Below the pieces are notes generated by a model. The model ran no database searches, was not told the origin of the DNA, and saw nothing but the letters and a program-made list of their open reading frames with translations. Positions 41,771-47,311 of a stretch of DNA of 64,000 nt are shown here, piece by piece. The stretch lies in the IMG/VR virus record IMGVR_UViG_3300027985_000286, positions 85,349-149,348 of that record, one strand, 5' to 3'. A program made the position numbers and the translations under genes. Origin of the DNA: a virus. Every line of letters begins with the position of its first letter. Positions within the stretch are counted from its first letter, which is position 1.

Positions 41771-44170
41771 ATGGAATTGGTTCAGTATAGAGATTTCTTG
41801 AACGAATCTCTAGATAAATTCTACCCCTTCGCGGTAAATACAGAAAGCCTTGCAAGCTGGGTAAGGGCTCAATATGAGTTCAACGTCGGCTCGAGTACCT
41901 TCGCTCTTAGAGTGATCAAATCTTTTAGACCAGGGACTTTTGCTTACCAGGTTCTTCTAGGTAGACTGGTGAGTAAGAAGGTATCACCCAAGCTTGTAGG
42001 TGTTACCAATTTTAAGATGTTCTTCTCAACTCTGGTTAATATCCTTTTAGAGATTCACGATAATCCAGTCCCAAAACTGAAGACTGTCTTTGGTATGGCT
42101 ATACGAATTGATGCAGATGCGTACGATAAGCACAAATCTTTGATTGTTAGAGCGGTAAGGATGAAGCTCAAAGGTAAATACCGATTGATGGAGGGGGTGA
42201 GTAAAGATTACATTGATGATGGCAGCATGAAGGTCCTGTATATCTACCAGTTCGGAAAAACCTTTAAGCAAGTCTTCGACAAGCTACCTTCGGACTTTCT
42301 TGATAGCGTACCTGACGAAGGGCAGGATACCACAAACCCTCAACCTGAGACGGACACTCTTTCTTCTGTAGCTAAGCCTATAGAAAAAGCTGCTCCGGTA
42401 CTAACAACCCCTTCATCTGTTGTTTCTAAAGGTACCGAGAAAGAAAAGGACGTTAGCCCTACTTTCAAAAAGGTTCCTGTTGTGGTAGAGCCTGTCACGA
42501 AGCCTGAACCTTTGAGTAAGACTGGTGACTTTAAGAGTTTTGTTAAAGCGCCAGAAGATGTTAAAGATGATAAGAAAGATCCTATTGATAGGGTTTTGTC
42601 TCCTTTGGGCTCCAACTTGTCTGAAAAAGATGTCGCTGAAGGCTGGAAGCTCTATGTGGCTAGAGTCTTAAGCAACAAGTTCGGCAAAACTGATACCTAT
42701 ATCAACGGTGATAAGAATAAGATTATTACCATGATGGCCGCTTTATCGAGTGATGGAATAAAAGACAGAATTCTACCAGATGTTGTTGCTCTCTATGTTC
42801 TTAATAAGGCAGGTATCAGAACAGGTCACGTTTACGATTTCTACAATAACGGTAACACTATATACGATACCGAATGGAACAAGTTTCTGAAGAAATCAGT
42901 TAAGAGTAGTAAAAAGAGAGGGTACTGGAATTACATCAAGTCACCTAAAATCACTGACGATTCTTTCCCGCAGGATTCTAGGTCAATTAATGACGTCTCT
43001 TATGAAGAGCTGTTCAAGATATACGAAGGTGGCTTACCTTTGGAGGTAGACATAACTTACAAGTATTACCGTGAGCCTAACGATATTGATGCGTTCACTG
43101 CTCTTGACAATAAGGTCTTGGAAAGCATGAGCGTTGAAGAGAAGAAAGACTTGTTCTTGTCAGTAGCAGCATCGATGAAAAGGGATAAGCCAAACTTTTC
43201 AAGAAAGTTTAAAGAAGATGACGATGGCGGTAGTAAGCATATTCACTTCTCTGAAGTGTTTCCGGGTGATAATAGATCATTTTCTGTTAATTATTTAGGT
43301 GACAGCCTGTTTAATAGTATGACGTCATCTCAGATTGATGATTTTGTCCAAAACATGGACCCGATCTTCGCGTCCTGCATTGACAGTGGGTTCTACGTTA
43401 ATGATTTAGAACACTTCAAGGCGAACTGGGTAAGCAGCTGGACAATTGCTGGTGGTAGCAATGCGCAGGATTGTGCGTTCGCATGGGTGTCTGAGTTCGG
43501 TGAGCATAACACTGCAGAAAAGCCTCTGTGGCAAGGGGTCAAAAACATTTTCTCTGAGAAAGGCATCTCCGGTAACGGTTTGAAGAACTTTAGTGCAATC
43601 TACGCAGAGACCCAAGCTTTCCTTAAGGGTAAAATGAAGAAGAAGTATGACACAAAGCTAATTACGATATACAGAGGAGTCGGTATACCTTCTTCGAAGG
43701 TAATGAACTACGTCCCTGGAGCGTTAGAGTCCTGGACCACGCAGCTAGGAACAGCCAGCACTTTCGCGAAGATGATGAGCGATCCCAGAAGTAAAGATGG
43801 TGGTACAATTCTTTATGCAGAGGTTCCAGCGTCTGCAATCTGGGCGACATACGAATCCCTCTCAGGATGGTTTCCTGCAGAGAAGAACCTTAAGGGTAAG
43901 AAAGAGCACATTGTTCTAGGTGGCGTGTTTGCAAAGTACCCGATTAGAGTGTATAATCCCAAAACAAAGAGTCCTACTGATACTTTGATATCTTTTTCTG
44001 AATGGAAAGATACAACAATGGTAACAGAACAGAATAGAACAGAAGTAGAGGTCATTTTTACAGATGACCCGAGTTTTAATGATATCATTGCAGATAAGAA
44101 CACCGTGACAGGTAGAAAGGTAGAACCTGAAGGTGATCTTGTTAATACTGATGATGACGAAGAAGAATAA
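41771..44170 (+). CDS. Putative injected ADP-ribosyltransferase 1, 799 aa
   Basis: The N-terminus MELVQYRDFLNE/S is a head-targeting peptide with predicted gp21 cut after residue 12. Residues about 13-180 match the N-terminal domain of the 55860 protein (DKFYPF, VRAQYEFNVGS, NFKMFFSTL, LYIYQFG). A Pro/Thr/Lys-rich linker follows (185-270). The C-terminal domain is ADP-ribosyltransferase-like: Arg635 in TIYRGVG, SWTTQLGTASTFA, and Glu712 in GKKEHIVLGG. The usual Glu or Gln two residues before the catalytic Glu is Lys710. T4 Alt is the functional model: packaged, injected, modifying host RNA polymerase. The target here is unknown. Confidence 0.78.
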   Translation: MELVQYRDFLNESLDKFYPFAVNTESLASWVRAQYEFNVGSSTFALRVIKSFRPGTFAYQVLLGRLVSKKVSPKLVGVTNFKMFFSTLVNILLEIHDNPVPKLKTVFGMAIRIDADAYDKHKSLIVRAVRMKLKGKYRLMEGVSKDYIDDGSMKVLYIYQFGKTFKQVFDKLPSDFLDSVPDEGQDTTNPQPETDTLSSVAKPIEKAAPVLTTPSSVVSKGTEKEKDVSPTFKKVPVVVEPVTKPEPLSKTGDFKSFVKAPEDVKDDKKDPIDRVLSPLGSNLSEKDVAEGWKLYVARVLSNKFGKTDTYINGDKNKIITMMAALSSDGIKDRILPDVVALYVLNKAGIRTGHVYDFYNNGNTIYDTEWNKFLKKSVKSSKKRGYWNYIKSPKITDDSFPQDSRSINDVSYEELFKIYEGGLPLEVDITYKYYREPNDIDAFTALDNKVLESMSVEEKKDLFLSVAASMKRDKPNFSRKFKEDDDGGSKHIHFSEVFPGDNRSFSVNYLGDSLFNSMTSSQIDDFVQNMDPIFASCIDSGFYVNDLEHFKANWVSSWTIAGGSNAQDCAFAWVSEFGEHNTAEKPLWQGVKNIFSEKGISGNGLKNFSAIYAETQAFLKGKMKKKYDTKLITIYRGVGIPSSKVMNYVPGALESWTTQLGTASTFAKMMSDPRSKDGGTILYAEVPASAIWATYESLSGWFPAEKNLKGKKEHIVLGGVFAKYPIRVYNPKTKSPTDTLISFSEWKDTTMVTEQNRTEVEVIFTDDPSFNDIIADKNTVTGRKVEPEGDLVNTDDDEEE

Positions 44171-45324: not shown

Positions 45325-45375
45325 ATTTAGAAGTAAGAAGCAGCTTGATTTGATTCAAGCTAAGCAGTATCAGCA

Positions 45376-45439
45376 GATAGTTCAACGGTAGAACAGCCGG
45401 GGTGGCTCGGAAGACGAAGGTTCGACTCCTTCACTGTCG
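45376..45439 (+). tRNA. tRNA-like element, identity uncertain
   Basis: A D-arm (TTCAACGGTAGAA), a perfect T-arm (GAAGG, TTCGACT, CCTTC) and a six-pair acceptor (GATAGT/ACTGTC) are present. The anticodon arm is defective: GCCGG and TCGGA pair imperfectly around a 6-base loop GGTGGC, and no CCA is encoded, unlike every other tRNA here. It is a decayed tRNA or a tRNA mimic. Confidence 0.6.
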
Positions 45440-45449
45440 TTTATTTCAT

Positions 45450-46221: not shown

Positions 46222-46231
46222 TGGTGATTTT

Positions 46232-46477
46232 ATGAAGGTTGAGATCACAAAGAGCGAAGCCATTCGTGTGGCAGCCCCTTAGTTCTAAGTATGGAGAAGA
46301 ATGTGAGCAGGAACATCTTGCATTTTTCGTGGAAGTAGCTTAGAATACTGCTTATAGAACAAGTTATACGTGCCGAAAGGCTAGGGCTGGTATCCCGAAT
46401 TCGAACCAATACCAGGGTGGAGTAAGAGCTGTCTGACAGGTTGAAGCGCTGCCCGCGTGGACTTGACAGCTCACATT
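46232..46477 (+). ncRNA. Structured non-coding region upstream of tRNA-Pro
   Basis: Only a 16-codon frame (46232-46282) is present. Pairings include TTCTAAG/CTTAGAA around 46290-46335, CTGGTAT/ATACCAG (46387-46393, 46409-46415) and GAGCTGTC/GACAGCTC (46426-46433, 46465-46472). With the structured region after tRNA-Pro this may be one large RNA with an embedded tRNA. No known class recognised with certainty. Confidence 0.5.
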
Positions 46478-46554
46478 CTCGGTATAGCGCAGTCTGGTAG
46501 CGCCCCTGCTTTGGGAGCAGGTTGTCGGGGGTTCAAATCCCTCTACCGAGACCA
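46478..46554 (+). tRNA. tRNA-Pro (TGG)
   Basis: Acceptor CTCGGTA/TACCGAG, anticodon loop TTTGGGA, T-loop TTCAAAT, encoded CCA. It is flanked on both sides by structured non-coding sequence. Confidence 0.96.
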
Positions 46555-46557
46555 AAT

Positions 46558-47066
46558 AAAATTGGACCGGTTTCTTGAAACCGTTGTGCTATAGGTGATT
46601 TACCTAGTCCGAGTGTCATGAATGGTTGCACACCTTTTGTGAGTTTGCTGACATTGGCGCGTCAGCAACACTAGAAGCCAGAGTTTTTGTTGGTGATGGG
46701 AGGTTGGCTTAGAAGCAGCCATCCTTTAAAGAGTAGGACTAAGGCTGGTACCAAGAACACTTAGGTTGGCGATGCGGCAGGCAACCGCTCTTGAGTCAAC
46801 TGAAAGCCCGATAGCCTGTGGTAATTAATTCGGCTTTGCATACCGTAAAAGCCACAGGGTCAGAGAAAGGAAAGTAAACGGAGCATGGGAACAGGTGACA
46901 CGTTGAAACGTACTGCAGATACCGCACCGACTCTGACCATAGCACCAAGGCATTCAACGCTAGGATGCCGAAGGAATGGGGTAGCTCCCCTGGGGGTGAT
47001 TGGGCCAGGTGCCACTTACGAAGTAACCAGGCACCCCGGAAACGGTAAGGCTGAGGTTTCCTTTTG
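46558..47066 (+). ncRNA. Large structured RNA with a 23S rRNA L11-site mimic
   Basis: About 510 bases without a convincing gene. Positions 46704-46724 are identical to the 23S rRNA helix 43 hairpin that binds protein L11 (loop GGCTTAGAAGC), followed after one base by TTTAAAGA, again as in 23S. A U-A pair of the rRNA helix is replaced by G-C, preserving pairing. Further stems: CGGTTTC/GAAACCG, TTGCTGAC/GTCAGCAA (46645-46652, 46661-46668), CCTGTGG/CCACAGG (46815-46821, 46852-46858), GGTCAGAG/CTCTGACC (46858-46865, 46931-46938), GGTGCC/GGCACC, and a final GGAAAC/GTTTCC stem followed by TTTT (47038-47065), a likely 3' end. Confidence 0.75.
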
Positions 47067-47311
47067 GCGTAACAGCACACCATCATCAACATTCTATTTG
47101 AGGGTTAGATGAAATGAGTTTACCGACCAGAGCAGTGTTCTACAAGGATGGGTGCGAGATTGCTCATGCTTTTACCAACGTTGGATGGGTGATGGATGAA
47201 CAGAACATTCCTTCTTGCGTGAAAAGATCCGCAAGCAATGTAGGTCTCGTAAGAGACGACTGGGACACTGTGAAGCTTTACGGTAAAGAGTACACTGTAG
47301 GACAGATTTAT

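Follow-up and report, generated by a model that had tools for sequence, protein, structure and literature searches.

The window analysed here, a stretch of 64,000 nucleotides from IMG/VR virus record IMGVR_UViG_3300027985_000286, contains within its tRNA array an RNA that, judged by its sequence, is a complete copy of the GTPase-associated centre (GAC) of 23S rRNA (Escherichia coli positions 1051–1108, the L11/thiostrepton domain), with a further domain inserted between U1090 and G1091. The sequence of this RNA, its fold as given by covariation, its conservation across diverse phages, its strand and its genomic setting are direct observations. We consider it reasonably probable that it is a trans-acting phage non-coding RNA that copies the GAC, binds host uL11 and acts on translation.

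The helix 43 (H43) copy spans 46703–46732. Within it, 46703–46723 are identical to E. coli 23S positions 1059–1079; the initial annotation had recognised this identity and placed it at 46704–46724, one position too high. G46702 and C46724 stand in place of U1058 and A1080, and TTTAAAGA at 46725–46732 equals 1081–1088. The same annotation had described a match to 1081–1088 resuming after one changed base and had read U1058 to G as compensating A1080 to C; both readings were correct, and the 1058–1080 pair covaries strongly across the family. Its view of the element as a phage RNA in its own right, folded and bearing a mimic of rRNA, is borne out by the fold and the homologues. Its description of the flanks as foreign to rRNA fails at the 3′ end, where helix 44 (H44) starts past the 47066 limit of that annotation. 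GCGTAACAGCACAC at 47067–47080 corresponds to H44 (1091–1104) with its GUAACA loop, 330 nt downstream of the H43 copy. What had been taken for one hairpin within a larger ornate RNA is instead a whole GAC, made up of H43, H44, the end of H42 and the tertiary pair 1082–1086, and the remainder is an insert in helix 44. It is the mimic that forms the constant core of the RNA, and the remaining stems vary.

When the insert is left out, the 58-nt composite aligns with E. coli 23S rRNA as a single ungapped 52-nt block at 88.5% identity. This alignment to 23S rRNA is found in 5,395 of 5,426 E. coli genomes, at a median of seven places per genome, which is the number expected from the rrn copies. The ungapped match indicates that the window RNA comprises the complete GAC, with H43, H44 and their junction. 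In cmscan searches with Rfam, the LSU_rRNA_bacteria model matches 57 nt at 46697–46753 with 28 bits, at an E-value of 6e-5 in a 34-kb search and of 4.2e-5 in a search limited to the region, so that the likeness to rRNA does not arise by chance. The contiguous match stays below the curated gathering score of 50 bits, so that the element is to be regarded as rRNA-like, not as a 23S gene. The parts of the RNA are listed in Table 1.

Table 1. Parts of the GAC-like RNA in the window and the nearest upstream tRNA gene (23S numbering of E. coli in brackets)
Feature	Position	Strand	Basis
tRNA-Pro(tgg), closest upstream same-strand tRNA	46478–46554	+	ARAGORN
Outer closing helix P1, 5′ strand (1045–1055)	46689–46699	+	Pairs with 47080–47090
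Helix 43 copy (1057–1081); A1067 at 46711; compensated 1058–1080 pair at 46702/46724	46701–46725	+	23S identity; covariation at 1057–1081 and 1058–1080
GAC junction (1082–1090), UUAAAGAGU; tertiary pair 1082–1086 at 46726/46730; G1087 at 46731; A1088 at 46732	46726–46734	+	1082–1086 covariation
Insert, 328 nt, between the U1090 and G1091 positions	46735–47062	+	Pairs i1–i4 covary
First insert helix	46735–46738 / 47059–47062	+	Covariation
Type I insert element GGCACCCCGGAAACGGTAAGGCTGA, with CCG-GAAA-CGG hairpin at 47036–47045	47030–47054	+	Alignment, consensus fold, 16 type I members
UUUG linking insert to helix 44	47063–47066	+	Present in nearly all members; part of the scan pattern and so not independent evidence
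Helix 44 copy (1091–1104): GC-GUAACA-GC hairpin, ACAC; C1102 pairs with G1087 and C1104 with G1055	47067–47080	+	Ungapped composite alignment
P1, 3′ strand (1104–1114)	47080–47090	+	Pairing, family covariation

The RNA has at least 103 distinct homologues, found in phages of Pseudomonas, Aeromonas, Acinetobacter, Vibrio, Xanthomonas and enterobacteria and on contigs binned to Clostridia. Matches by blastn include Pseudomonas phages pf16, Astolliot, Milchi and UNO-G1W1, Aeromonas phage 4_4572, Xanthomonas phages XacN1 and XbC2, Serratia phage BF, Cronobacter phage GAP32, Pectobacterium phage CBB, the Erwinia SNUABM phages and Kaldavass, Vibrio phage 2.275.O and Acinetobacter phage ME3. In pf16, a phage infecting P. 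putida, the member lies at L001 2990–3190. Loss of the hairpin in homologues had been set beforehand as evidence against a functional mimic; the homologues keep it. A scan of IMG/VR with the helix-44 motif alone matched at least 120 contigs. An H43-like hairpin (at most 4 mismatches in 16), which forms no part of that pattern, lies upstream in 112 of the 120 matches listed, and six of the eight listed matches without one end close to the motif. A further 24 loci came from scans that used solely the insert motif or solely the 3′ side of H43; 22 of them have H43 and H44 together, and in a few of the 24 the outer helix pairs poorly in the register expected. Three independent DNA patterns (H44, the insert motif and the H43 3′ side) arrive at one architecture. 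In a genome collection searched with the 3′ pattern, 7 of 21 matches are members, one of which lies next to phage genes for RNA ligase and polynucleotide kinase on a contig binned to Flintibacter; the 14 matches without H43 were discarded. Random 400-nt pieces overlap real RNAs and are therefore unusable as a chance control.

In Astolliot and Milchi the RNA is preceded immediately upstream by a diverged second copy of GAC-like type (L002 2656–2995 and L011 1656–1995, respectively), in which helix 44 is altered (GGTGTCATAACACGCC) and the insert differs. In the window, a candidate second, degenerate copy near 46331–46360 (GTAGCTTAGAATACTGC) was rejected, as it has neither the TAANGAGT junction nor an H44 partner. 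A pattern search of the window's whole phage record gives just one H43.

Some database matches are plain 23S rRNA, including several unannotated “phage” contigs and the record of Paenibacillus phage Pd_22F (L010), whose genuine contiguous 23S sequence is probably host contamination or misassembly. Such matches lend some colour to the notion that the RNA is 23S contamination, a misassembly, or a 23S fragment that phages have captured and that is decaying or interrupted by an intron. However, independent complete isolate genomes carry the RNA with non-rRNA flanks and inserts, the search for an intron core in the insert gave no Rfam intron match, the insert can be as short as 25 nt, and the compensatory changes described below point to purifying selection on the fold. 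Contamination or misassembly is excluded for the members used here, and an origin of this kind as a whole has a negligible probability.

The fold was analysed across the family of at least 103 distinct members, 83 of which have an H43 of standard length and were numbered by 23S position. Among these 83, pair 1058–1080 is A-U in 27, U-A in 27 and G-C in 26. Pair 1082–1086, which we take to be a tertiary pair of the GAC, is U-A in 39, A-U in 19 and C-G in 19, and its covariation lies above every null value. In the family alignment, the outer helix shows four pair types and strong covariation at 1047–1052/1107–1112. The tree-aware null was built from 75 sequences (those within 8% difference removed), a FastTree phylogeny and 150 simulations, in which the substitutions of each column are redistributed along the tree. 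The top 14 of 3,828 pairs are exactly ten pairs of the GAC and outer helix and four of the first insert helix; eight of them exceed all null values, six have E-values of 0.02 to 0.15, and the fifteenth-ranked pair has an E-value above 5. These compensatory changes indicate purifying selection on the fold. Unguided RNAalifold applied to the type I alignment draws the same structure, with 20 pairs backed by double changes. The single-sequence fold of the window RNA is unremarkable, and its minimum-energy structure lacks H43; because its z-score is −1.5, minimum-energy folding was left out as evidence. An additional hairpin is present in helix 43 near U1078 in L106, L063, L067, L049, L085, L129, L134, L130 and L029, and this site is a second tolerated expansion point in some members.

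At the sequence level, the GAC core (1055–1104) of the members has a median identity of 88% to genuine 23S rRNA; the helix-44 motif, which is fixed by the scan pattern, and TAANGA at 1083–1088, which is fixed by the filter, were not counted as conservation. Conservation of sequence extends to about 1053/1106, close to where the classical 58-nt L11 domain ends, and outside this limit pairing alone is kept. Selection thus appears to be directed at the L11-binding domain and not at the part of H42 that carries L10/L12. A1067, which is used by thiostrepton, is a base other than A in 10 of the 83 members.

The factor-facing loops, 1066–1072 and 1093–1098, are likewise kept among the 83 members. This would suit an RNA that serves as bait for a recogniser of the L11 stalk other than uL11, such as a translation GTPase, RelA, the tRNA elbow, or a toxin or defence protein of the host that is directed against this rRNA site. 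The location of the RNA in tRNA arrays also fits a bait, as phage tRNA arrays are linked to countering tRNA-directed defence. In addition, the A-site tRNA elbow is touched by the L11 stalk on the ribosome (PMC4974054). However, loop positions 1067, 1068 and 1070 are more variable than junction 1083–1088, the latter being partly fixed by the filter. We also know of no defence protein that acts on helix 43 or 44, and a bait of this type is considered unlikely.

The insert differs greatly between members, from 25 nt (in L115) to 360 nt, and the GAC is kept throughout. Type I inserts, to which that of the window belongs, occur in 24 members and contain GGCACCCCGGARACGGTAAGG with a CCR-GNRA-YGG-like hairpin, type II inserts occur in 13 members and end in GACCCTTAGAG, and the remaining 66 members have diverse inserts of neither type. 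Most inserts are about 80 nt or longer, and types I and II each have their own conserved core. These properties might mean that the insert is the working part of the molecule, and that uL11 or the GAC fold is a structural module only, through which the RNA recruits uL11 into a ribonucleoprotein. RNA-phage replicases take host r-protein S1 in a comparable way, and phages are known to recruit bS1 (PMC10931766). The insert types, however, have no recognisable similarity to each other, and with one insert of only 25 nt no common effector part is visible, which leaves the GAC as the sole shared part. An insert-centred function is accordingly rated as rather improbable.

Members of the family are closely associated with tRNA genes of the same orientation. 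Within 3 kb of members, 363 tRNAs lie on the strand of the RNA and 0 on the opposite strand. A tRNA is present within 1.5 kb in 60 of 103 members, and in about 20 of the 103 a tRNA ends no more than about 10 nt from where the stretch assigned to P1 begins. A search around the copy in the window revealed no promoter-like site, so that this copy would depend on the tRNA transcription unit; the tRNA array probably supplies its transcript. In XacN1, sequence matches place a promoter-like TTGACT-17 nt-TAATAT shortly before P1 and a terminator-like AGCCCCGAGT/ACTCGGGGCT with a T-run right after P1, and this RNA is probably transcribed from its own promoter. A similar terminator-like hairpin and T-run, also a sequence match, directly follows P1 in L015.

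Several other features accompany the RNA in the array of the window. The Rfam tRNA model detects a tRNA-like gene at 45371–45440 (+; 31.3 bits against a cut-off of 29) for which ARAGORN is negative; it is an unusual or degenerate array member. The stretch at 46222–46470 (+), before tRNA-Pro, is without an obvious gene, contains repeated stems and the T-loop-like GAATTCGAACC, and is possibly a second structured RNA. No relatives of it were found by blastn of the neighbouring region, which took in its last part only. The leader between tRNA-Pro and P1 (46558–46688, +) contains a strong hairpin, GTTTGCTGACATTGGCGCGTCAGCAAC, at about 46644–46671 that is absent from all homologues found here. A 799-aa ORF at 41771–44170 (+) also lies within the tRNA array and has no PHROGs match.

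The neighbouring genes of the members bear on whether the RNA could act in cis. Clustering of 415 neighbouring proteins gave lineage-specific families only and no shared partner gene, and a VWA/DUF2828 protein beside L151 was rejected as a partner because it occurs once. The absence of a common protein neighbour argues against a cis-regulator of one gene. It has been established that r-proteins, for example uL1, are autoregulated by rRNA mimicry (PMC10931766), and an rRNA-mimic element in an mRNA could in the same way control the next gene via uL11, like r-protein leaders. The downstream gene nevertheless changes between lineages, many members are directly followed by a tRNA or a terminator-like hairpin, and no uL11 gene was found in the window's phage record, which is possibly incomplete. 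A cis-regulatory leader is thus rated as very improbable.

In the proposed mechanism, a free-standing phage non-coding RNA would be produced as part of the tRNA transcription unit, or in XacN1 probably by use of a promoter of its own, and would fold as a complete copy of the 23S GAC whose helix 44 accommodates an additional, variable domain. Off the ribosome, the isolated 58-nt GAC RNA is able to bind L11 (PMC10161774), and its fold is preserved in the phage RNAs; from this we infer that the phage RNA most likely binds host uL11 in trans, as the isolated rRNA domain does. Translation during infection may then be affected in that uL11 is captured, or in that a false L11-stalk surface is shown to docking factors. 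Transcription of the RNA, its binding to uL11 and a trans role as a decoy or sponge would be the probable course of events. The least certain part of the proposal is the process from which the phage would benefit, which might be the activation of RelA through L11 or the work of the translation GTPases. Activation of RelA on the ribosome requires the N-terminus of L11 (PMC4974054), so that an RNA interfering with L11 would have a link to the stringent response; alternatively, it may present translation GTPases with a false stalk surface. A more far-reaching version, put forward tentatively and held to be less likely than not by some way, is that a widespread RNA class uses a full GAC decoy that draws uL11 or L11-dependent factors off ribosomes, remodels translation and blunts the L11-dependent RelA stringent response. 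The main doubts on the uL11 proposal are the variability of A1067 and the abundance of uL11. Since the amount of uL11 equals that of ribosomes, a decoy would have to be strongly expressed, or its effect would fall mainly on freshly synthesised uL11.

Among known systems, the bacterial 23S GAC itself (E. coli 1051–1108; Rfam RF02541) shares the H43/H44 fold and pairs 1082–1086, 1087–1102 and 1055–1104 with the phage RNA. In contrast to it, the phage RNA is free-standing, contains no other 23S sequence, has an insert between 1090 and 1091 and an outer helix that is unrelated beyond 1053/1106, and scores below the Rfam LSU threshold. None of the Rfam 15 families matches the phage RNA above threshold. 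The covariance-model check for GOLLD and ROOL that the initial annotation had proposed was run and gave no match at E-values up to 1 or, in a further search, up to 10, and the OLE model gave none over the same ranges. GOLLD and ROOL, too, are structured RNAs from phages or prophages, of unknown function and often situated near tRNA islands (PMC12286853), but the phage RNA is shorter than these and is built on an rRNA domain, which is unreported for them. OLE, a bacterial non-coding RNA, has been proposed to sequester r-protein RpsU (PMC12286853); the idea of holding an r-protein is the same, whereas the r-protein and the fold are different. Leaders of r-protein genes, such as that of uL1, bind an r-protein by rRNA mimicry (PMC10931766) and act in cis before r-protein genes, whereas the phage RNA has no fixed downstream gene. 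T4 rnaC and rnaD likewise lie within the tRNA cluster of a phage and are small, stable RNAs of unknown function; in their sequences, read by eye, neither helix 43 nor helix 44 was recognised. None of the compared systems (GOLLD, ROOL, OLE and r-protein leaders) accommodates a phage RNA that acts in trans and has a complete GAC as its framework. No description of such an RNA was found in a search of open papers, and the XacN1 genome paper makes no mention of a non-coding RNA.

A free-standing viral RNA that preserves an entire ribosomal functional centre, tertiary contacts included, is to our knowledge undescribed. RNAs of the GAC type are common in large tRNA-bearing phages, where they usually lie among the tRNA genes. 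The natural variants represent about a hundred evolutionary solutions for folding of the GAC outside the ribosome. The RNA offers a small, defined and testable handle, through uL11, thiostrepton, RelA and the translation GTPases, on phage manipulation of host translation, and also on the reason for the presence of structured RNAs of unknown function in tRNA islands. The finding suggests a previously undescribed RNA by which viruses engage or interfere with the protein-making machinery of their hosts.
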